Virus record (IMG/VR): IMGVR_UViG_3300020583_000224
Span: 58,713-122,712 of that record
Reading direction: 5' to 3' (one strand)
Origin: a virus
Length of the DNA stretch: 64,000 bases
Shown here: positions 3,311-25,631 of the stretch, piece after piece
Position numbering within the stretch: position 1 is the stretch's first letter
How the letters are laid out: every line of letters starts with the position of its first letter
Translations under genes and position numbers: made by a program
The notes under the pieces: model-generated
What the model was told of the DNA's origin: nothing
What the model saw: only the letters and a program-made list of their open reading frames with translations
Database searches by the model: none

Positions 3311-3528
3311 GGGGCGTCCAGGGCGTTCCTGAGGTCCGCGGCGATCGTGCGCGGGTCGACGCCGGTCGTAGCGAAGCTCTCACGCCACACGTTGACCGCA
3401 GTCTCGAACAGCTCGGCGGAACCGGCCAGGCTGTACGCCTCGCGCCAGGTCGCGGCCGGAATGCCGGTCTCCTGGCTGAGGGCGCCCATCTGAATGTCGG
3501 TGACGGCCTCGGTGTTGCTGCGGGTCAT
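3307..3528 (-). CDS. Small unknown protein
   Basis: 73 residues from an ATG at 3528 with GAGGAGAA upstream; the longer frame to 3645 is a shadow of the HTH gene. The sequence includes QETGIPAATWREAYSLAG, which is helix-turn-helix-like in length but has no clear recognition helix. It is coupled to the next gene through GTGA. Confidence 0.72.
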   Translation of the reverse strand: MTRSNTEAVTDIQMGALSQETGIPAATWREAYSLAGSAELFETAVNVWRESFATTGVDPRTIAADLRNALDAP

Positions 3529-3530
3529 GG

Positions 3531-3935
3531 TCAGTTCTCCTCTTCTGTCTGCATTCCGCGCCGGGTGCACGTGGCGCATACGTCGAAGGGCACGCCGTTG
3601 GGGATGGTCGGGTCGGTCGCGGTCGGGGTTCCGGTTGTGCCGCATGCCGTCGTGACGGTGTCGTGGCCGTCGTTCCAGCGGGCACGGTGTCCGAGCCCGT
3701 CGATGATGGCGAGGATCGGGTATCGGTCGGTGCGTGTTCCGCGTCCGGGCCGGTTGGCATGCGCGGCACGGATCTCGTCTGCGGAGTACAGCGCCTTGGC
3801 GGGCCCTCGCGGGCTGCGCTGGTAGCTGACGGCTTTGACGCCCCAGCGGGACAGGGTGCTGGTCGCGGACTTGTTCGTTGCGGCGCCGATGTGCTCGGCG
3901 GCTTGCGTGATGGTCCAGAGTTCGGGTTCAGGCAT
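3531..3935 (-). CDS. HTH protein with C-terminal Cys pair
   Basis: 134 residues from an ATG with GGAAG upstream. The first 55 residues (ITQAAEHIG, then LSRWGVKAVSYQR and ALYSADEI) look like a winged or MerR-type DNA-binding domain of the kind found in phage Xis and Cox-type proteins. The C-terminal part carries CATCTRRG, one half of a possible zinc site, with a further Cys upstream. It probably binds DNA. The target is unknown. Confidence 0.75.
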   Translation of the reverse strand: MPEPELWTITQAAEHIGAATNKSATSTLSRWGVKAVSYQRSPRGPAKALYSADEIRAAHANRPGRGTRTDRYPILAIIDGLGHRARWNDGHDTVTTACGTTGTPTATDPTIPNGVPFDVCATCTRRGMQTEEEN

Positions 3936-4002
3936 GGGCTTCCGTTCGGCGGCGGGGGGACGCGGCCAGGCGCCGGATCGATCCGGCGCCCGTGCGGTCT
4001 GG

Positions 4003-4278
4003 TCAGGCGGAGGCGTACGGGCCCATGATCGCGATCTTCTCGCCGAGTTCGAACTCGCGGACGTCGCCGTCGTTGCGGGTGACGATCACCAGCGTCGGGG
4101 TGACCATGCCGCCGTCGCGCCAGACCTCGTACTCGGCGAGGCGGATCTCGACCGACTTGATGGTCCAGGCGTTCTCGTAGCCGGGGCGCACGGCCCAGTA
4201 GCGGAATCCGGGGCGCATGTCCTCGACGTTGATGCTCGTGGTCTCGACGATCCCGGCCTGCGTAGCGGTGGCGGTCAT
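4003..4278 (-). CDS. Small unknown protein behind a strong promoter
   Basis: 91 residues from an ATG at 4278 with GAAGGAG upstream. It is beta-rich (YWAVRPGYENAWTIKSVEIRL, in part) with alternating hydrophobics, no cysteines and no membrane segment. It is the first gene after a consensus-like promoter and a 9-bp inverted repeat at 4305-4343, so this gene and those after it can be expressed separately from the upstream part of the cluster. The function is not recognised. Confidence 0.8.
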   Translation of the reverse strand: MTATATQAGIVETTSINVEDMRPGFRYWAVRPGYENAWTIKSVEIRLAEYEVWRDGGMVTPTLVIVTRNDGDVREFELGEKIAIMGPYASA

Positions 4279-4283
4279 GTCCG

Positions 4284-4345
4284 GCTCCTTCGTTGGCGTC
4301 TTCCTGACACTTCTAACTATGACGTATAGACGTGGAAGTGTCAAG
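4284..4345 (-). promoter_or_regulatory. Promoter with overlapping inverted-repeat operator
   Basis: Read on the minus strand, TTGACA is followed after 17 nt by CATAGT, a near-consensus vegetative promoter. A perfect 9-bp inverted repeat (TGACACTTC at 4305-4313 and GAAGTGTCA at 4335-4343) brackets it: one arm covers the -35 box and the other lies just past the -10 box. An inner near-palindrome (CTATGACGTATAG) sits between. This is the expected layout for a repressor-controlled promoter of the 4003-4278 gene. The repressor is unknown. Confidence 0.65.
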
Positions 4346-4350
4346 CGTGC

Positions 4351-4734
4351 CTACGAAGATTCCTCAACCATCCCCGGGTCGTCATCCGCATGCCCGGCAG
4401 CATGCGCCTCGGCCTCGCTGACGGCCAGCTCCCGCGTGGGGATCAGGTCTTTCGTCGTGTGCCCGCAGATCAGGCACGTCCAATACCAGTGATACAGCGT
4501 GCCGAGCTGCCTGCTGTACCGGAAGGCGTGCGGCCACACGCGGTACGTGGCGGGCTCGTACGTGACCTCGACGCGCCCATCCGGCCACTGTGCGAGCGCT
4601 TCGAACCAGACCTCCGTGTAGTCCTGCGCGTGAACGCCTTCGGGCAGTACGGGCCACGCCGGCTTGGGGTTCGCGGCGCGCCAGGCGTCGATCGCGTCGG
4701 ACGCGGCGCGGGCGGCATCGTCCTGACTCGTCAC
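4351..4734 (-). CDS. Unknown protein with zinc-knuckle-like motif
   Basis: 127 residues from a GTG that overlaps the upstream stop (GTGA). The centre is rich in Trp and Tyr (LYHWYWTCLICGHTT) and contains CLICGH, followed by a His-rich helix (EAEAHAAGH), so one metal site is plausible. Nothing else is recognisable. It is co-transcribed with the genes at 4731 and 5084. Confidence 0.72.
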   Translation of the reverse strand: MTSQDDAARAASDAIDAWRAANPKPAWPVLPEGVHAQDYTEVWFEALAQWPDGRVEVTYEPATYRVWPHAFRYSRQLGTLYHWYWTCLICGHTTKDLIPTRELAVSEAEAHAAGHADDDPGMVEESS

Positions 4735-5087
4735 GAGCCATCACCGCCCGCCCGGTCAAGCTCTACCAGATCGGGGTGCGTTGCCATCTCGTCCCACCCG
4801 GCGTACAGGCCGAACGCACGCGGAGCATCCCGCCGCGGCACGAGCCATTCGAGGATCGCGCCGCACGGCAGCTTGTGGAGGGACTCGGCGAGCAGGGCGC
4901 CGTACACGGCCTCGCTGAACTGGATGTCGTGCTGCGGGATGTCGATCGCGAGGATCGGGCCGCGCGAGAGCGGGTTCACGGACGCGTGGAAGTGCACGTA
5001 GCAGCGGATCTCGGTGAGGATCCGTTCGCAGTCCGGGCCGCCGCGCATGAGGATGAAGCAGGCGGTGAACGCGGACGGGGCGGTCAC
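4731..5087 (-). CDS. Unknown phage protein
   Basis: 118 residues from a GTG in a GTGA overlap. It has a mixed alpha/beta composition with the stretch GPILAIDIPQHDIQFSEAVY and several His residues. There is no signal peptide or membrane segment. No family is recognised. Confidence 0.7.
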   Translation of the reverse strand: MTAPSAFTACFILMRGGPDCERILTEIRCYVHFHASVNPLSRGPILAIDIPQHDIQFSEAVYGALLAESLHKLPCGAILEWLVPRRDAPRAFGLYAGWDEMATHPDLVELDRAGGDGS

Positions 5088-10493: not shown

Positions 10494-10569
10494 TGCGCAG
10501 CAAACCGCAGCCAGCCGACACCCCGTCAGTACAGTGCGTCCCGACACACTGACTCACCAGGGGGCAACC

Positions 10570-11076
10570 ATGGCTAAGCGTCCTACCGCACCATCGAACT
10601 CTGTCTCGTTCTGGACCGGGAGCGCGCTCGTGTACTTCGACGGCCACGACCTGACGATCAACCGGCCGTCCGGGTCGATCAAAGGCATCGTGTCGTACCC
10701 CGTGGACCAGATCTCGGGTATCCAGATCACGAAGCCGCCACTGTCGCTGCACGTGTTCCGGATCCTGGTCGCGGGGGAGTCGGCGCCGCGCCGGTCGCAG
10801 GGGATGCTGGAGGTCGCACGGGACCCGTTCGCGGTCCAGTTCAACTCGAGGTGCAAGGCGGAGGCTGAGGCGGTCGCACAGGCCGTACGCGACGCACAGG
10901 CGGCGCTGCGTGCCCCGGACCCGGCCGCGCCGCAGCCGGCCTCGGATGGTCTCGCCGGCCAACTTCAGCAGCTCGCCGCCCTCCACGCGCAGGGCGCGCT
11001 GTCCGACGCCGAGTTCGCTGCCGCTAAGGCGCGGCTGATCGGCGGGGCGCAGGACGAGACGCCGGGGGGTTGGTAG
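10570..11076 (+). CDS. DUF4429/SHOCT-like protein
   Basis: 168 residues from an ATG at 10570. The N-terminal 100 residues are beta-rich (FWTGSALVYFDGHDLTI, then GIVSYPVDQISGIQI), like the PH-type DUF4429 domain. Residues 130 to 162 are a SHOCT motif (LQQLAALHAQGALSDAEF and KARLIG). Such proteins are common in Streptomyces chromosomes, plasmids and phages; SHOCT is thought to mediate oligomerisation. A promoter-like TACAGT lies about 35 nt upstream. Confidence 0.8.
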   Translation: MAKRPTAPSNSVSFWTGSALVYFDGHDLTINRPSGSIKGIVSYPVDQISGIQITKPPLSLHVFRILVAGESAPRRSQGMLEVARDPFAVQFNSRCKAEAEAVAQAVRDAQAALRAPDPAAPQPASDGLAGQLQQLAALHAQGALSDAEFAAAKARLIGGAQDETPGGW

Positions 11077-11081
11077 CACTT

Positions 11082-11120
11082 CGCCGCCTGGCGCACCTCG
11101 GGTAGATGTGCCAGGCGGCG
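11082..11120. terminator. Bidirectional terminator hairpin
   Basis: CGCCGCCTGG at 11082-11091 pairs perfectly with CCAGGCGGCG at 11111-11120, with further pairing inside (CAC with GTG). It lies between the convergent genes ending at 11076 and 11127, so it can stop transcription from both sides. Confidence 0.75.
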
Positions 11121-11126
11121 AGTCTT

Positions 11127-11441
11127 CTACAGGGCGAGCGCCGAACGCAGCCCGGCCGCGACGCGCATCATTGTCTGCGGGGTCAGCGCTCCACCCTCGC
11201 GCTTAACCTCGTCCGGGAACAGTTCGAAGATGTCGTCGCACAGCACCCGGCCGACGAGCGGGTCCTGCGGGGCGAGTTCGACGATGCTCTCCAGCGCAGG
11301 CTTGCTGTCGGTCGTCGTGATGCGCACGACCAGCGCGGTGAGGAGCCGAGTGTTGCGCCCGTTGTTGCTCACGACCAGGAACGGCTTATCACCCTGGCCG
11401 ACGTCGGCGTAGTAGACACGCCCGCGCAGCAGCGCCGCCAT
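11127..11441 (-). CDS. PemK/MazF-family toxin (endoribonuclease)
   Basis: 104 residues. The order RGRVYYADVG, KPFLVVSNNGRN, LTALVVRIT, SIVELAP and GRVLCDDIFEL matches the PemK/MazF fold, whose members cut mRNA at short sequences in the cytoplasm until held by the antitoxin. The length is typical. It starts directly after the antitoxin stop. In a plasmid or prophage this pair would favour maintenance of the element or act in defence. Confidence 0.88.
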   Translation of the reverse strand: MAALLRGRVYYADVGQGDKPFLVVSNNGRNTRLLTALVVRITTTDSKPALESIVELAPQDPLVGRVLCDDIFELFPDEVKREGGALTPQTMMRVAAGLRSALAL

Positions 11442-11444
11442 GGG

Positions 11445-11738
11445 CTAGTCCTTCCCGCCGCGGCGGCGCTGGCGCATGATGGCGTGGAACTCCCGGTCTT
11501 CGTCGGTTTGCGAGGCTGCAAGGGCGGCGTAGCCGTGTTCGGCGACGCGTTCCTTGATGACGCCGAGGCCGAGGCTGAGGGCGGCGTGCAGGGTGGCTGC
11601 TTCGGAGCGGACGGCGACTGGCCCGACTAGTTCGACGAGTGCCTGGTAGGCGGGGCTGCCCTGGTCGCGGGCGGCTTCGACTATGGCGAGCTCGTCGGGG
11701 TCGATGGGGACGTTCCTTCGGGTAGCATCCGTCTTCAT
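11445..11738 (-). CDS. Antitoxin of the MazF-like pair
   Basis: 97 residues from an ATG at 11738. The N-terminus (RRNVPIDPDELAIVEAAR) is consistent with a short strand and helix of a DNA-binding antitoxin; the C-terminus is basic and probably unstructured until bound to the toxin. Its place just before the toxin, and the direct repeats in its promoter, support an autoregulated toxin-antitoxin operon. The exact antitoxin family is not recognised. Confidence 0.75.
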   Translation of the reverse strand: MKTDATRRNVPIDPDELAIVEAARDQGSPAYQALVELVGPVAVRSEAATLHAALSLGLGVIKERVAEHGYAALAASQTDEDREFHAIMRQRRRGGKD

Positions 11739-11749
11739 GGCTCAAAGTC

Positions 11750-11768
11750 TGGCACAAATCGTGGCACA
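11750..11768. promoter_or_regulatory. Direct repeats in the toxin-antitoxin promoter
   Basis: TGGCACA occurs twice, at 11750-11756 and 11762-11768, with a 12-bp period, just upstream of the antitoxin ATG. Repeats at near one-helix-turn spacing are typical binding sites for antitoxin or toxin-antitoxin complexes that repress their own operon. Confidence 0.5.
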
Positions 11769-11771
11769 CTG

Positions 11772-11858
11772 CTAGCGACATGCCATCAAAACGGGGGCCA
11801 TTCTGATATCACCCCTGGTCACCACGGCGGCGTCCAGTCCACCAAGCGGCGCAGTCAC
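11772..11858 (-). CDS. Possible 28-residue leader-type ORF
   Basis: A GTG at 11858 overlaps the stop of another tiny frame (GTGA) and reads 28 codons to a TAG at 11772. The overlap style is that of the real genes here, but the length gives little statistical support and it ends inside the antitoxin promoter. It could be a spacer or a leader peptide. Confidence 0.25.
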   Translation of the reverse strand: MTAPLGGLDAAVVTRGDIRMAPVLMACR

Positions 11859-11917
11859 GGCGTCTCGCCGTGCTCGAAGCGGGCGGCGAGGTGGATATTG
11901 GTCGGCCGAGTAGCCAC
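11855..11917 (-). CDS. Possible 20-residue ORF after the 317-aa gene
   Basis: A GTG at 11917 follows the stop of the 317-aa gene with GGAGG seven bases upstream and reads MATRPTNIHLAARFEHGETP before a stop. The ribosome site is better than expected by chance, but 20 residues is too short for certainty. Confidence 0.3.
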   Translation of the reverse strand: MATRPTNIHLAARFEHGETP

Positions 11918-11918
11918 G

Positions 11919-12872
11919 TCAGCCTCCGATGAACAGTTGCGGAAGCTGGGCAAGGGCGGAGCGGACTTCGCGGTGCCGCTCGCGACGGCCAGCCTCCGCG
12001 CGCACCGCAGCGTCGTAGGCGGCCTTGGCCGCTTCCCATCCCGCGTCACTCGCCCCGATCTCCTCGTCAAGCTTTGAGAGCCAGTCGACGAGTTGAGATC
12101 GGGCTTCGACAACGCTCTCGACGTACATGCGCTGCTTCAGCAGCTCGAGGAGTGGTTCGCCGGCCGCGCGGAGTTCAGCCTCCATGATCTCGTCGGTCGT
12201 GATGATCTGAAAGTCCGAGAAGTCGGGCGCCAGGGAGATCAAGACGCCATCAGAGATGGCCATGAGGATGAGTCTTTCCAGCTCCGAGGGACGCACCCCA
12301 CGGTGCGGTGCCGCGCGGTGCTGCGTCAGCGGCTTCGTTGCCTCGGCTTCGGCGTGGGGGATGTCGAAGCCGAGGCAGGCCACCTTTCGGGCGGCAATCT
12401 GCCAGTTGGCCTGGACATGCACGCCGGTCTCGTCGTTGACGCTCTCGTCGATGGAAAGTGTCTCCGAGCGGGTCGTAACGAGGTCGTTGCAGCGGTTGAG
12501 CCGAGTGGACGTCGGCAGACCGTGGGCCATTCGGCTGACATGGTGTGCTAGTAGTGCGTCGGCCTCGGCGCAGATCAAGGTGCCGAACGTGGCATCTTTC
12601 GCGACATGGGCGCGGCGAAGGTTCTCGCCTCGTTGCCAGACGATGTGCCAGTGGTCGTCACGCGTGCATCCTTCGGGGTGCCAGGTGACGTGTCCCCAGG
12701 GGACGCCGTTGAGGGTGCCGTCCTCGGCGATCAGCGGCTCCTCGATCAGTTGCTTGAAGATGCCTTGGGTGACCTGCCGTGCTCCGATGGTGAGGGTCTT
12801 CACCTCGACGGTCATCGTGGTCACGGACGCGTTGTGCACGGTGAGGCGCTTGCCGCTGGCGGGTTCGTTCAT
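11919..12872 (-). CDS. Unknown 317-residue protein next to the origin-like region
   Basis: The ATG at 12872 has AAGGAG upstream; the remaining frame to 13544 runs through non-coding repeats and a neighbouring gene and is rejected. Residues 1 to 75 are beta-rich (TMTVEVKTLTIG, then GVPWGHVTWHPEG). The C-terminal 90 residues are helical and probably coiled. No catalytic motif is recognised. Its position, transcribed out of the repeat cluster at 12965-13225 and downstream of a replicative ATPase, suggests a replication or copy-control role, which is inference only. Confidence 0.78.
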   Translation of the reverse strand: MNEPASGKRLTVHNASVTTMTVEVKTLTIGARQVTQGIFKQLIEEPLIAEDGTLNGVPWGHVTWHPEGCTRDDHWHIVWQRGENLRRAHVAKDATFGTLICAEADALLAHHVSRMAHGLPTSTRLNRCNDLVTTRSETLSIDESVNDETGVHVQANWQIAARKVACLGFDIPHAEAEATKPLTQHRAAPHRGVRPSELERLILMAISDGVLISLAPDFSDFQIITTDEIMEAELRAAGEPLLELLKQRMYVESVVEARSQLVDWLSKLDEEIGASDAGWEAAKAAYDAAVRAEAGRRERHREVRSALAQLPQLFIGG

Positions 12873-12904
12873 GTCGCTGCTCCTTTGCTGGTTACGGGTC
12901 AGGC

Positions 12905-12950
12905 TTCTTATGCTGACGGCGCGCGCCGACAACGGCGTTCGCGCGTCAAC
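12905..12950 (-). promoter_or_regulatory. Promoter of the 317-aa gene
   Basis: On the minus strand TTGTCG is followed after 16 nt by TAAGAA, a fair vegetative promoter, about 35 nt upstream of the ATG at 12872. The spacer is very GC-rich (GCGCGCGCC). Confidence 0.4.
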
Positions 12951-12970
12951 TTCGACGCGCCCCTTGGGGG

Positions 12971-13220
12971 TGGACCACGAGTCATCCCCCCTTAGGGGGA
13001 CCATGTGGTCCAGTGGTCCACCGCAGGTCAGAGGCTTGGATCTGGCAAGTGGTCCGCGAAAAGTGGACCACCCGTGATCGCAACTCTCTGACCTGGCCAT
13101 ATGGGGTGGTCCAGATCGCCGGTCCACCTGGTCCAAGCCTCTTTCAGTATGAGGGGACTGATTCGCGACGTGTGCTGACCTGCTGGATCCCAATTGGCCC
13201 AGTGGACCATCCGAGGTCAG
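12971..13220. repeat. Iteron-like repeat cluster, candidate replication origin
   Basis: The heptamer TGGTCCA or TGGACCA occurs at 12971, 13006, 13014, 13064, 13107, 13129 and 13203, with one-base variants at 13050 and 13120. AGGTCAG or its complement occurs at 13025, 13088, 13175 and 13214. Two perfect 10-bp inverted repeats nest here: CAGGTCAGAG (13024) with CTCTGACCTG (13086), and GAGGCTTGGA (13031) with TCCAAGCCTC (13132). The 362 nt between the genes at 12872 and 13235 encode nothing else. Beside a DnaB-N/RecA-type ATPase, this is the pattern of a replication origin or partition site. Confidence 0.7.
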
Positions 13221-13234
13221 GCGGCATATGAGAG

Positions 13235-14587
13235 TCACTCGTTCCCCTCGAATCGCAGGGCGTCCCACTCGGCCTTGTGCTCCTCCAGCGCCCGCTGAAT
13301 GCTGCCCTTTGCGGCCTGGAGGATCTCGGCGAGGTCGCGCTGCGAGATCCGCGCCCCGGCCTCGACGCACGTCGCCTTTATGCGCAGCCAGAGCAGGTCC
13401 CTCTCGCGCGTCACGGCGGTCCACGGCCATGCCCCACCCATTTGCAGGATCATCGGCCACTCGCGTTCGTCGCGCTGTCCGCGCCAGTGCTGCAGCTCGC
13501 CCTCGGGGGAGAGGTAGATCCCGAACTCGGGCCAGCGGAGCCACAGGGACGCCCCGTATGGGCGGGTAGGCCGCTTCGCGCCGCCGCTCGCGTGCGGCGA
13601 GTGCGCCTCGAGGATGAGCGCGAACCCGTACTCGGTGCGCAGGCGGTCAAAGAGGCTGGCGGCGTTGCGCGCGGCGGCCTCAGGGTTCTTCGGGTCCTCG
13701 CTGATCAGCTTGTAGAGCGGTCCGCCGATTACGATGTCCGGGTCCACGGCCTTGACAGTCGCCTCGAGAGTTGCCGCATCCTTAGAGTCGGCTAGGTCGA
13801 AGCCAGCCGGGTGGATGACGAGGTGAAGTGCAAGCTTGTCGCTGCCCGTCGCTGCCACGAGAGAACGGATCTTGCGCTTCACTTGGCGGTCGCTGTTTTC
13901 CACGTCAAGCAGCAGCACCCGCAGGGGGGTGATGTCGGGTCCGCCAAACGGGTGGATGCCTGCGGCAAGCTGCACGGCCATCTGTCGCAGCAGCGTCGAC
14001 TTTCCCTTGCCTTCCTGGCCCGTGAGGATGACGCGGTCGCCGCGTTCAAGCAGGCCCGGCACCAGCCAGTCGTACGGCTCGTCTTCGCCAGCGAGGAACT
14101 CGTAGATTGAGGGTGCGGGAAGCCCTTTGTGGCGGCGTCCGCCGTCGGTCTCCCGCTGGAAGTCGGCGAGGAACAGCCGCTCGGCCTCGGGCAGATCCTC
14201 GGGTCGGGTCTCCCGGTAGAGCTGAGCCAGCTTCATCGCGCGGCGTTCGCCCTTGCGGAGCTTGTCGGTGTCGCGCACGCGCTCGGCATAGGCCCCAGCG
14301 TTGGCGGCGAACGGCACTGCCTGAGTGAGGTCGTGCAGGTATGCGGGTCCGCCAATCTTCTGGAGTTCTCCGCAGCGACTCAATTCACCCGCGACGGTGA
14401 CCATGTCCACGGGCTGGCTTTCGCCGTAGAGGTCGAGGATCGCGTTGAAGATCTTCTCGTGGCGGGGGTGGTAGAACTGGTCGCCGTCTTCGAGGACGCA
14501 GATGACCTCCGCGATCGCGTCGCGGCTGAGCATCATGCCGCCGAGCGTCGCCTGCTCAGCCTCGATGTCCTGAGGCGGCTCGTTCAC
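13235..14587 (-). CDS. Replicative ATPase: DnaB N-terminal domain plus RecA-like AAA domain
   Basis: 450 residues from a GTG with GAGGAGA upstream. Residues 1 to 100 resemble the DnaB N-terminal helical domain (EAEQATLGGMML, then GDQFYHPRHEKIFNAI). A RecA-type core follows, with Walker A GQEGKGKST near residue 187 and a Walker B-like VLLLDVENSD near residue 222. A C-terminal HTH-like segment (ISQRDLAEILQAAKGSIQRAL) follows. The layout suggests helicase loading or unwinding at an origin, as in RepA-like plasmid and phage ATPases. The repeat cluster lies directly after the stop. Confidence 0.88.
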   Translation of the reverse strand: MNEPPQDIEAEQATLGGMMLSRDAIAEVICVLEDGDQFYHPRHEKIFNAILDLYGESQPVDMVTVAGELSRCGELQKIGGPAYLHDLTQAVPFAANAGAYAERVRDTDKLRKGERRAMKLAQLYRETRPEDLPEAERLFLADFQRETDGGRRHKGLPAPSIYEFLAGEDEPYDWLVPGLLERGDRVILTGQEGKGKSTLLRQMAVQLAAGIHPFGGPDITPLRVLLLDVENSDRQVKRKIRSLVAATGSDKLALHLVIHPAGFDLADSKDAATLEATVKAVDPDIVIGGPLYKLISEDPKNPEAAARNAASLFDRLRTEYGFALILEAHSPHASGGAKRPTRPYGASLWLRWPEFGIYLSPEGELQHWRGQRDEREWPMILQMGGAWPWTAVTRERDLLWLRIKATCVEAGARISQRDLAEILQAAKGSIQRALEEHKAEWDALRFEGNE

Positions 14588-14703: not shown

Positions 14704-15462
14704 GTGGCGCCACAGTTGATCGAGGAGGCGACCCGCCCAGTGGTACAGGACCCATCCCAGGTGAGCGCTCGGCAGATCGCCGCCGAAATGAATGCGCGTA
14801 TCGACGCAGGTGAACTTCGGCCCGGCGACACGCTGCCGACGGTGCGCGAGTTGATGGAGCAGTTCGGCGCGTCCACAAACACCGTTCAGCGCGCACTTCG
14901 CGAACTGAAGGACCGTGGGCTGATCAGCAAACTTGGACGCAACAACGTCGTTCGGCATCCGGTTCAGTTGGTCGAGCGATCGGCGGACTACACGCGCCCG
15001 CTCGGCGAGGGCGAGCCGATCCCGCACAGGGACAAGCCTCGAATCACGGAGGTCGGCCCCACGGGCGCACCGGACTACGTTGCGGACCTCCTCGGCGTTG
15101 CGCCAGGCGACGTGGTGCTGGTCAGGCGTCGCACGATGATCCGCAACGAGGTCGAGCCCGTCGAGTTGGTCTCCTCGTTCTACCCGATGGAGATTGCAGG
15201 CGGCACGGAACTCGCGAAGCGCGCGCTCGTGAAGGGCGGCTCGCCAACGGCGCTTGCCCGCCTGGGCTACTTGTCCGGACCGTCTACCGAGTGGGTGTTC
15301 GGCCGCCTCCCCACGCCGGGAGAAGCGGAGAGACTGAATCTCCCGGCCGGCGCTCCGGTACTCCGGATTCTTCGCCAGATTCGGACGGCCGAAGGACGCC
15401 CGCTCGAGGTGATCGAGATGGTGATGAGTGCCGAGCGGAACGTCTTGAGGTACGAGCTGTAG
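14704..15462 (+). CDS. GntR-family transcriptional regulator with UTRA domain
   Basis: 252 residues from a GTG. Residues 20 to 85 are a GntR winged helix: ARQIAAEMNARIDAGELRPGDTLPT is the usual opening (split here), then VRELMEQFGAS and TVQRALRELKDRGLI. Residues 95 to 250 form a UTRA effector domain (PDYVADLLGV, VVLVRRRTM, SSFYPMEIA, EVIEMVMSA). Regulators of this type (KorSA, TraR) control transfer and excision genes of actinomycete plasmids and integrative elements. Operators are visible before this gene and before the next. Confidence 0.92.
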   Translation: MAPQLIEEATRPVVQDPSQVSARQIAAEMNARIDAGELRPGDTLPTVRELMEQFGASTNTVQRALRELKDRGLISKLGRNNVVRHPVQLVERSADYTRPLGEGEPIPHRDKPRITEVGPTGAPDYVADLLGVAPGDVVLVRRRTMIRNEVEPVELVSSFYPMEIAGGTELAKRALVKGGSPTALARLGYLSGPSTEWVFGRLPTPGEAERLNLPAGAPVLRILRQIRTAEGRPLEVIEMVMSAERNVLRYEL

Positions 15463-22368: not shown

Positions 22369-23415
22369 ATGGACGGCGAGACCCCCACCACCCCGGCGCC
22401 CCCCACGCCGCTCGGGGGATGGTGGATCGCGGCCGTCGCCGTGATCGGCACGATGGCCGCGCTCATCGCGATCGGCGGCATGATCCTGTCTTTCCGCGCC
22501 GTCTCCCAAGAGATGACCCCTGCGTTCGGCACCCAGTGGGCATGGCTCGTACCCGTCGTCATCGACCTGTCCGTGTTCGTGTTCTCCGGCGTCGACCTCG
22601 TCCTGAACCGGCTCCGCATGAACCACCCGCTCGCCCGGTTCACCGTGTACGGTGCGACGTTCGGAACCGTCTGGCTGAACTACTCCGCCGGCGGTTCGGT
22701 CGCTGGCCGAACCGCCCACATCCTCATGCCGAGCATCTGGGTCGTGTTCGTCGAACTCATGCGGCACGTGGTTCGGCGGCTAACCGGCCTGGCCGACGGA
22801 TCCCTGCGCGAACCCGTCCCGACGGTTCGATGGATCCTCGCCCCGTGGCGAACCGTGAACCTCTGGCGGCGCATGGTCCTGTGGGGCACGAACTCCTACC
22901 CGAAGGCCCTCGCGCAGGAGAAGGGGCGCCTGGCCGCTATCGCGGTTCTGCGAACCGAACACGGGCCGTTCTGGCGCTGGCGCGTCGCGCCACTGGTTCG
23001 CCTGCAGCTCAGTCTTGGCGAACCCGTTCAGGCTCCCGAACTTGCTGCGGCCGAACCTGCCGAACCGGACCGCGAGGCCGAACCGGAGACCCCGAACCTT
23101 CCCGCAGTTCCGAACCGAACCACCGCCGCCGGTCGCGCCGAACGTTCTGCGCCGCGCCGAACCAGCCCGCGCCCGAACGGTTCCGGGAGCGTCTCCCCGC
23201 TCATGTCGCGACCCGAACGCGTCGAGATCATCCGGCAGTGGATCGACCAGGCGGGCGGCCTCGAGGCCGTGCCGCTCAGCCGAATCATGACCGAATTCGG
23301 GTGCGCCAAGTCCACCGCCTCCGGCCTGCGCGCCGAGGCAGATCCCAGCCCTGCAACCCAAAGCGCGACGACGCCTAACGAAGACGACGAAGCTGATCGA
23401 GAGGACGCCGCCTGA
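22369..23415 (+). CDS. SpdB-like (DUF2637-type) membrane protein with C-terminal HTH
   Basis: 348 residues. Four hydrophobic segments in the first 140 residues (WIAAVAVIGTMAALIAIGG, LVPVVIDLSVFVFSGV and others) match the DUF2637 layout of plasmid-spread proteins in Streptomyces. A Pro/Glu-rich linker follows. Residues 285 to 330 (EIIRQWIDQAGG, then RIMTEFGCAKSTASGL) form an HTH. Spd proteins help plasmid DNA move through mycelial cross-walls after TraB-driven transfer. The stop overlaps the ATG-like start of the translocase gene, so they form an operon. Confidence 0.85.
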   Translation: MDGETPTTPAPPTPLGGWWIAAVAVIGTMAALIAIGGMILSFRAVSQEMTPAFGTQWAWLVPVVIDLSVFVFSGVDLVLNRLRMNHPLARFTVYGATFGTVWLNYSAGGSVAGRTAHILMPSIWVVFVELMRHVVRRLTGLADGSLREPVPTVRWILAPWRTVNLWRRMVLWGTNSYPKALAQEKGRLAAIAVLRTEHGPFWRWRVAPLVRLQLSLGEPVQAPELAAAEPAEPDREAEPETPNLPAVPNRTTAAGRAERSAPRRTSPRPNGSGSVSPLMSRPERVEIIRQWIDQAGGLEAVPLSRIMTEFGCAKSTASGLRAEADPSPATQSATTPNEDDEADREDAA

Positions 23416-25631
23416 TGGCACGACACGACACGACACGCGGCTACCTCGAGGCTCAGCCGCTCCAAATTCCCGATAGCGCCCAGCAATCCACCCTTCCCGT
23501 CGCGTGGCATGGCGCGCCTCCGGCCGTCACGCAACATGGAGAACTCGCAGCTCAGGCGCCGAATCAGGCTGCTCCGCAGTCGTACTACTCGGTCAGTCCG
23601 GGCCAGATCCTCCCACACGCGCAGGCCCACGACCTCCCCTGGCACATGGCCGGACTGCTCGACCACGAACTGCCCCGCCCGAAGCCCGAATGGGTCAAAC
23701 TCCTCAACGACTACCACGTGCCCGGGGTCGCCGGGACGCTCGTGTTCACGGCGTTCGGGTGGATGGCGCACAAGGAGCCGATGCACCCGTGGATGGCCGG
23801 GCTGTTCATCGGCGTGGGCGTCACCGGGCTCGTCGGCGCCTGGTGGGCGCACCACGAGCACGGCCAGGACGCGGACCCGCACTTCACCAAGGGCCTGGCG
23901 GGTCTTGGCGTTGCCGCCATCTGCGGCGGTGCCGCCGTTGGCGCCGGGCCCACGGGGATCTCGTTCATGCTGGCGTTCGCGCTGGCGGTCGGCGCCGTCG
24001 TCGGCGTTCACCAGTACCGCGAGCACAAGCGCCACGTGAAGGCGGTGACGGCAGTCGAGTTCCACGCTGCCGTCAACCAGGGGAAGGTTCACGTGGTCGG
24101 CCCCGGGCCGGCGGCGGCAACGTCGAACATTGTGGACGGTCGGGTGCTATCCCAGGAGGAGGCGCTGCTGCACCGGGCGTTCGCGGACATGGGCATCGAG
24201 CCGATCACGCTGCGCGGGTTCGAGCGCCTCGACAAGGACGCGTTCAACGTGATCGTCGGACTGCCGGGTACTTCCACGAACGACCCGGAGACGGTGATCG
24301 GCAAGCGGGAGGTGCTCAAGTCGAACCTGCGCGCCCGGCAGATCGCGGTGGAGGCGAGCTCCGAGCACGGCCACGAGATCAAGCTCATGGTGCGCTACGG
24401 CGCGACCAACCCGCTGCTCGAGACCATCGCCTGGAAGGGCCCCAACACCGACGACGTCGCCGAGCCGATCAGGACCAGCGTCGATTTGCACGGCGACGAA
24501 GTCATGGTGCGATTCGCCAACCGGCACACCCTCTACGCGGGTAAGACCCGGCGCGGAAAGTCGGCCGGCATCGCCTCGGCCATTTGCTCAATCGGCGCCA
24601 CGAAGAATGCTCAGCTCTGGCTAATGGATTTGAAGCCGGGTCAGGTCTCGCTCGGCCCGTTCGCCGCGATGGCGGCCCAGTCGGTCGAGGGCAGGAACCA
24701 GCAGGAGTGCGTGGAAAGGGCGTCCCTGATGATTCTCGCCGCCGTCGCGGCGATGGAGGAGAACGGGCAAATCCTCAAGGACGAGCGGGAGTCGACCGGG
24801 AAGCCGGTGTACGAGTGGGATGTCAACAGGCACGGCGCGGCGATCGTCCTGGTCATCGACGAGCTTGCCTACCTGCTGCGGCTGGACCCGGAGATCTACG
24901 AGGGCTGGGTTACGATCATGCAGGTCGGGGCGGGCCTCGGCGTGTGGGTGATCGGCGCTACGCAGTCTCCGTCGGCGAAGGCCCTCGGCGGCACCACTGA
25001 CGGCTCCAGTCAGTTCGGCAACGTGTTCTGCTACCAGTGCAAGGGCGCGACCCAGGCCGGGATCATCCTGGGCCAGGGGTCGTGGAGTGAGGGTTGGAAG
25101 CCGAACGAGCGGAACCTGCCGCTGCAGGGCATGCACCTGCTGCGCACCCCGGAGCACATCCACCCCGTGGTCATGCGGAACGAGTTCGTCGAGCCGGGCG
25201 ACGCGATGGACATTGCCGACCGGTACGCCGACTCCATTCCGGCGCTGCATCCGCGGACGGCGGCGGCGGTCGATCGCGTACTGAACATGGGGCTGCCGAC
25301 GAAGAGCGGGCCGGGCCCTGGTCGCGGCGGGAAGCCGTCCGGGCCCGTCGACAGCGAGATCGTGTACACGCGCCCGTATCTCGTGCCGGAGTATCCCGAC
25401 GGCGACGTGGTCGAGGCGCACCACCGCGCGGCGTGGGAGGCCTTCAAGGAGATGGGTTCGGCAACGATCGACGAGCTCAAGGCACTCCGACTCGACCAGC
25501 ACCGTTCACGCGAGTCGTGCAAGACCGCCTTGCAGGTGTTCGTCAGGCACGGCGGCGCGACCTCAGAGATGGACGGCCGTACCGAGCGATTCCACTGCCT
25601 TGTCGGTTCCGAGCGCCGCAAGGAGGCGTGA
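23415..25631 (+). CDS. FtsK/SpoIIIE-type DNA translocase (TraB-like)
   Basis: 738 residues. Hydrophobic segments between residues 100 and 200 anchor it in the membrane. The motor domain has Walker A GKTRRGKS near residue 376, VIDELAYLLRLD as Walker B near residue 480, and GVWVIGATQSPSAKA as the sensor stretch. The C-terminal 70 residues form a winged helix (ATIDELKALRLDQHRSRESC). In actinomycete plasmids and integrative elements one such hexameric pump moves double-stranded DNA between cells. A virion-encoding element has no obvious need for it. Confidence 0.9.
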   Translation: MARHDTTRGYLEAQPLQIPDSAQQSTLPVAWHGAPPAVTQHGELAAQAPNQAAPQSYYSVSPGQILPHAQAHDLPWHMAGLLDHELPRPKPEWVKLLNDYHVPGVAGTLVFTAFGWMAHKEPMHPWMAGLFIGVGVTGLVGAWWAHHEHGQDADPHFTKGLAGLGVAAICGGAAVGAGPTGISFMLAFALAVGAVVGVHQYREHKRHVKAVTAVEFHAAVNQGKVHVVGPGPAAATSNIVDGRVLSQEEALLHRAFADMGIEPITLRGFERLDKDAFNVIVGLPGTSTNDPETVIGKREVLKSNLRARQIAVEASSEHGHEIKLMVRYGATNPLLETIAWKGPNTDDVAEPIRTSVDLHGDEVMVRFANRHTLYAGKTRRGKSAGIASAICSIGATKNAQLWLMDLKPGQVSLGPFAAMAAQSVEGRNQQECVERASLMILAAVAAMEENGQILKDERESTGKPVYEWDVNRHGAAIVLVIDELAYLLRLDPEIYEGWVTIMQVGAGLGVWVIGATQSPSAKALGGTTDGSSQFGNVFCYQCKGATQAGIILGQGSWSEGWKPNERNLPLQGMHLLRTPEHIHPVVMRNEFVEPGDAMDIADRYADSIPALHPRTAAAVDRVLNMGLPTKSGPGPGRGGKPSGPVDSEIVYTRPYLVPEYPDGDVVEAHHRAAWEAFKEMGSATIDELKALRLDQHRSRESCKTALQVFVRHGGATSEMDGRTERFHCLVGSERRKEA

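Follow-up and report, generated by a model that had tools for sequence, protein, structure and literature searches.

Is a 250-nt non-coding interval crowded with short repeats (positions 12971-13220) a replication origin, and if so, which of the neighbouring proteins recognises it? The interval lies in a window of 64,000 nucleotides, which is the whole stretch analysed here and corresponds to positions 58,713-122,712 of a 122,712-bp IMG/VR virus record. The two ends of that record share 142 nt apart from 1 mismatch, which makes it probable that the record is nearly complete and either circular or terminally redundant. From sequence comparison we consider it probable that the 250 nt form the iteron array of a plasmid-type origin, and that the adjacent ATPase, which has a DnaB_N domain and a RepA-type core, binds them through its own C-terminal helix-turn-helix (HTH) as the initiator.

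Repeats in the intergenic gap

The repeats described in the original prediction are present as described. Seven exact copies of TGGWCCA begin at 12971, 13006, 13014, 13064, 13107, 13129 and 13203, with a variant, TGGCCCA, at 13195; the pairs 13006/13014 and 13195/13203 are each 8 nt apart. AGGTCAG occurs four times and in both orientations (AGGTCAG at 13025 and 13214, CTGACCT at 13088 and 13175), and both perfect 10-bp inverted repeats were found (I8, 12969/13013; I9, 13064/13104). All of these lie in a 362-nt intergenic gap (12873-13234), flanked as claimed by the gene for the DnaB_N and AAA_25 ATPase on one side and that for a 317-residue protein on the other, both on the minus strand. The features are as follows.

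12971-13209, no strand: heptamer array (seven TGGWCCA and one TGGCCCA)
12986-12999, no strand: G+C hairpin CCCCCTAAGGGGGG at the far end of the array, with a second hairpin at 12960-12970
13021-13033, minus: best copy of the second motif, CTCTGACCTGCGG
13088-13095, plus: degenerate copy of the second motif, CTGACCTG
13175-13182, plus: degenerate copy of the second motif, CTGACCTG
13214-13220, minus: degenerate copy of the second motif, CTGACCT
13235-14587, minus: candidate initiator helicase of 450 residues, with DnaB_N, a RepA/RecA-type ATPase and a C-terminal HTH (from Pfam, model and structural matches)
13238-13405, minus: HTH tail of the ATPase, residues 395-450 (from model helices and HTH matches of relatives)
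13280-13309, minus: predicted recognition helix, residues 427-436, of which K427 and G428 covary with the heptamer
11919-12872, minus: 317-residue protein with no Pfam or PHROGs match, an unlikely initiator

With seven TGGWCCA and four AGGTCAG-type sites this was the richest 250-nt interval; in 60 first-order simulated sequences of 64 kb, no more than two sites of either type fell within 250 nt, and the cluster of TGNNNCA sites is the only one in the whole 122.7-kb record. Multiple short repeats beside the gene for a replication protein are what is found at iteron-type origins. The G+C content of the 250 nt is 60%, the lowest 30-nt stretch has 47%, and there is no marked AT-rich stretch. An Rfam search of the array region gave no credible match. 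GC skew across the whole genome, which had been proposed as a check, peaks 2.5 kb from the array; because the peak coincides with a switch in gene strand it is uninformative, and speaks neither for nor against an origin.

Short C/G hairpins occupy 12960-12999 and take the form CCCCCTTACGGGGG in many relatives with a tailed ATPase. Hairpins of the C4+/G4+ kind, like that at 12986-12999, were found at 15 of the 23 tail-bearing loci checked; they are possible terminators or priming sites.

The ATPase, its tail and the heptamer

The ATPase matched the Pfam families DnaB (2.9e-30) and AAA_25 (4.9e-25). DnaB_N is present and the core is of the AAA_25 type, DnaB_C (PF03796) being absent among matches up to E 0.1. 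No D5/SF3-type helicase domain was matched either, the best matches being DnaB_N, AAA_25, DnaB and RSF1010 RepA. The helicases SaPI Rep and SCCmec Cch2 belong to superfamily 3 (SF3), as does the motor of P4 alpha, and with no D5/SF3 match the ATPase is not of the SaPI Rep/P4 alpha family by descent. An AlphaFold model (mean pLDDT 88) superimposed on the N-domain of M. tuberculosis DnaB with a Z score of 23.6 (138 residues aligned, rmsd 1.5) and on RSF1010 RepA with a Z score of 19.9 (220 residues aligned, rmsd 3.0, 16% identity), the sequence match to the latter reaching only E 0.014. The structure search with the whole model covered residues 2-416 well and the tail barely. In the model the tail forms helices at residues 395-410, 416-423, 427-436 and 438-449 in an HTH arrangement, and the tails of relatives match HTH_IclR/MarR_2, those of L123 (24.3 bits) and L126 (23.0 bits) both exceeding the HTH_IclR cutoff of 22. 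A helicase-type motor with an AAA_25/RepA-like core and a C-terminal HTH are thus joined in one chain, and the repeats lie directly downstream of its gene; both are features of self-targeting initiator helicases, the origin role here being putative.

The viral and plasmid relatives of the ATPase fall into two groups, with and without the HTH tail, and the tailed ones come mostly from viral contigs. An array was found within 500 nt 3' of the ATPase gene at 18 of 25 tailed loci and at none of 119 tailless ones (Fisher 1.3e-17, although kinship among the sequences means that they do not count as independent). Because the tailed proteins themselves were the source of the tail model, it defines the groups and does not test them. 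Among the seven tailed loci without a TGNNNCA array in this range, L016, L119 and L131 have arrays further downstream and L118 has CGTACCA. L127, L137 and L358 carry the tail, with no array found in records that are possibly incomplete; L358 was the one additional tail-bearing protein from further viral scans. In annotated phages, relatives among the matches listed align only to about residue 405, and no tailed one was recognised. A profile HMM search for the tailed ATPase in 396 Actinomycetota genomes (E<=1e-60) gave no match, and is uninformative as it had no positive control.

At the tailless viral loci examined, repeats lay upstream of the ATPase gene, mostly inside a separate upstream gene, an arrangement that recalls lambda O. 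The rep1/rep2 system described for linear plasmids of Streptomyces (PMC13152386) agrees with this. Such upstream repeats were seen in L020, L038, L051, L055 and others, at about 3500-5000. At L021 (4008-5891) a TGAATCA array follows a gene whose product has a weak Toprim match ahead of the ATPase core and the HTH tail; this protein possibly unites primase, helicase and initiator.

The heptamer varies between lineages (TGGACCA, TGAATCA, TGGGACA, TGGCCCA, TGACTCA, TGAAACA, TGATCCA, TGTCACA, TGGAACA), the TG...CA frame being mostly kept, with a single CGTACCA; the TGNNNCA form was recognised only after inspection of the data. Across 22 arrays, differences in the heptamer followed differences in the predicted recognition helix (Mantel r 0.35, p 5e-5) and not those in the ATPase core (r 0.007, p 0.48), and the correlation with the helix persisted when the core was accounted for (r 0.35, p 5e-5). 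In a scan of 380 columns K427 ranked first and G428 second, with family-wise p values of 0.0025 and 0.005. These p values rest on shuffling and are approximate, since the sequences are related. Lysine accompanied TGGACCA in 6 of 6 proteins with a core identity of only 37-57%, and glutamine accompanied TGAATCA in 3 of 3; an exception is L140, which has lysine with TGGGACA. Guessing the heptamer by nearest neighbour succeeded in 11.6 of 16 cases with the helix, against 5 of 16 with the core. The structural model, made without the covariation data, begins its helix at residue 427. A blind prediction of TGAATCA for L137, which has glutamine, failed, no array being found at that locus.

Spacing is alike even where the heptamer differs (17-9-10-14-32-9-16 in L121, 17-9-10-15-33-8-17 in L123). 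Covariation together with steady spacing is the pattern expected of a protein-DNA contact and supports recognition: because the repeat covaries, in 22 related viruses, with the pair of residues at the start of the predicted recognition helix, the ATPase seems to recognise the repeats itself.

AGGTCAG, the second motif of the array, is the core of CTCTGACCTGCGG(AAAC), whose 17-mer form is CTCTGACCTGCGGAAAC. Downstream of the ATPase gene, TGACCTGC was found at 17 of 25 tailed loci as against 9 of 119 untailed ones (p 4e-10). Actinobacterial phages and genomes are strongly enriched in the exact 17-mer (loci L141-L220 and L283-L319): it occurs in at least 120 stretches of viral contigs and in 42 of 101 Streptomyces genomes, compared with none in either set for the reversed control. 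It is found near iterons, amid quite different repeats, downstream of tRNA genes and, in L293 and L305 among others, as one half of a perfect hairpin, and is therefore not specific to this type of origin. A literature search for the motif yielded nothing relevant. At L012, two TGACCTGC sites flank a tRNA-like 3' end, a candidate attP, after an integrase-like gene (10524-12160).

Genetic context and competing explanations

Phage and plasmid genes occur together on this element. The record encodes a terminase, tail proteins and an RDF-like protein; integration may be possible too, given an integrase-like gene adjacent to a tRNA-like 3' end. The plasmid-like genes in the window are:

14704-15462, plus: GntR/UTRA regulator, divergent from the ATPase gene
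11127-11441, minus: PemK/MazF-like toxin (Pfam PF02452, 1.6e-10)
22369-25631, plus: DUF2637 protein and FtsK/SpoIIIE-like ATPase, a plasmid-transfer-like backbone

On pSCL1 and similar Streptomyces plasmids the homologous ATPase likewise has a GntR gene nearby, and pSCL1 has a DUF2637 gene as well. The toxin gene, together with a small ORF beside it (11445-11738), is a probable plasmid-maintenance or addiction module. The record has a second helicase, a canonical DnaB (DnaB_N and DnaB_C) downstream of an O-like gene (L013, 12147-14979; genome 32147-34979), likely the lytic replication module. Terminase and tail genes thus share one element with GntR, FtsK-like, DUF2637 and MazF-like genes, and these plasmid-like surroundings, the phage genes and the separate DnaB module make it plausible that this is a phage-plasmid which replicates by one module in the lytic cycle and by another for maintenance. 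The array looks like the origin of an actinobacterial virus-plasmid hybrid.

It is conceivable that the ATPase binds the array, yet that the role of the module lies in lytic growth, for example as a control site or an additional lytic origin, and not in plasmid-like maintenance. The phage structural genes, the integrase-like gene near the tRNA-like 3' end and the RDF-like gene fit such a role and keep a separate plasmid state hypothetical, and the viral provenance of most tailed relatives points the same way. On the other side stand the canonical DnaB with its upstream O-like gene, already in the record, and the best annotated relatives of the ATPase, which Streptomyces plasmids encode in the neighbourhood of a GntR gene. 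Deletion of repA in mycobacteriophage Miko is reported to have cost prophage or plasmid stability while plaque formation stayed normal (PMC7157519). We regard a lytic role as a real possibility, if an unlikely one.

An array that is bound could also be an operator with no origin function, through which the downstream gene or the ATPase gene is controlled, be it by the ATPase's own HTH or by some other regulator. Covariation speaks for recognition and not for its purpose, the array lies upstream of the gene for the 317-residue protein, and a GntR regulator is near. Yet the array is 3' of the ATPase gene, away from its promoter; the genes downstream in viral relatives include no homologue of the 317-residue protein; array-bearing viral relatives have no GntR homologue nearby; and 4-13 sites per array with similar spacing would be unusual for an operator. 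This explanation appears improbable.

The suggestion that the 317-residue protein is the initiator that binds the repeats, part of the original prediction, has in its favour that its gene adjoins the array, which is adjacency only. No homologue was present in the fetched flanks of the viral ATPase relatives checked, those bearing arrays included; L017 and L018 lack one in theirs although their arrays are of TGGACCA as here. Relatives of the 317-residue protein occur in unrelated plasmid and chromosomal contexts with no such arrays, no known DNA-binding domain was found in it, and its low-confidence model has no apparent HTH. We therefore think an initiator role for this protein very improbable, and the ATPase the better candidate. 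The family of the 317-residue protein (L095-L113) is uncharacterised and actinobacterial; its members share a conserved N-terminal region (residues 10-90 or so) and, at the C terminus, an LPQLFI motif.

Finally, TGGTCCAC resembles the actinobacterial DnaA box TTGTCCACA, but to explain the TGGWCCA repeats chiefly as degenerate DnaA boxes, or as plain promoter elements serving a host protein, is hardly credible because the heptamer differs between relatives, which have TGAATCA, TGACTCA or TGGGACA at the same position, changes that a conserved host protein would not follow.

A candidate self-targeting helicase

Comparison of the relatives thus supports the part of the original prediction that saw origin-type iterons beside a replication protein, and an iteron-type origin recognised by the ATPase is the best reading. 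In the mechanism that we infer, HTH tails would bind to TGGWCCA heptamers, frequently in pairs spaced by 8-10 nt, and so gather a ring of ATPase motor domains at the origin; the motor would open and unwind the origin DNA, and the DnaB-type N-domain would recruit the host primase, allowing autonomous replication.

The closest parallels in mode of action are proteins with an unrelated motor. SaPI Rep has a C-terminal domain and iterons directly downstream of its gene, and with SCCmec Cch2 it belongs to the D5-type group of helicases (PMC7581432). It is alike in the proposed mode of action, but its hosts are different and its motor is D5/SF3-type, whereas the motor here is of the DnaB_N and RepA/RecA kind that is usually targeted by separate initiators or loaders. 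P4 alpha, a single protein that binds origin repeats by a winged-helix domain and then unwinds (PMC4234260), resembles the proposed one-protein recognition and unwinding; it has its own primase domain (PMC4234260), whereas the N-domain of the ATPase is DnaB-like without a primase. Ring helicases fused to origin-binding domains are also described for SV40 and papilloma viruses (PMC3401641).

Systems with a similar or homologous motor divide the work. RSF1010 uses three polypeptides, RepC to bind the iterons, RepA to unwind and RepB' to prime (PMC4234260); the ATPase core resembles RepA in fold, and iterons are recognised at initiation, as is proposed here, but RSF1010 splits recognition (RepC) from the motor (RepA), whereas here both would be in one chain. 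The rep1-rep2 type plasmids pSCL1, that of S. mobaraensis and that of NBC_01650 encode a homologous ATPase (37-44% identity) with a GntR gene close by, but that ATPase has no HTH tail and a separate gene lies upstream; upstream of the ATPase here there is no separate Rep1 gene, only the divergent GntR gene. The mixture of phage and plasmid genes is likened by description to Streptomyces pZL12 and pSLE1, which combine phage structural genes and plasmid functions in one element (PMC4487206). A literature search covering few subscription papers found no described self-targeting case with a DnaB/RepA-type motor. We propose a self-targeting initiator helicase composed of an N-domain like that of host DnaB, a motor like RSF1010 RepA and an HTH.

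More tentatively, a DnaB/RepA-type helicase family of RecA fold may have become its own origin-recogniser by gaining a C-terminal HTH, its specificity evolving through one or two helix residues against TGNNNCA while an invariant actinobacterial site, CTCTGACCTGCGG, probably the target of a host factor, stayed fixed in the same arrays. If true, a replicative helicase of a class that as a rule relies on separate proteins for initiation and loading would here target itself, and nature would have supplied some ten heptamer specificities together with a candidate two-residue code. Exchanging the tail of 55 residues, or individual residues, would then open origin recognition, incompatibility and helicase loading to experiment; actinobacterial vectors could gain small orthogonal replicons, and, if the reading holds, the CTCTGACCTGCGGAAAC element becomes a concrete question.
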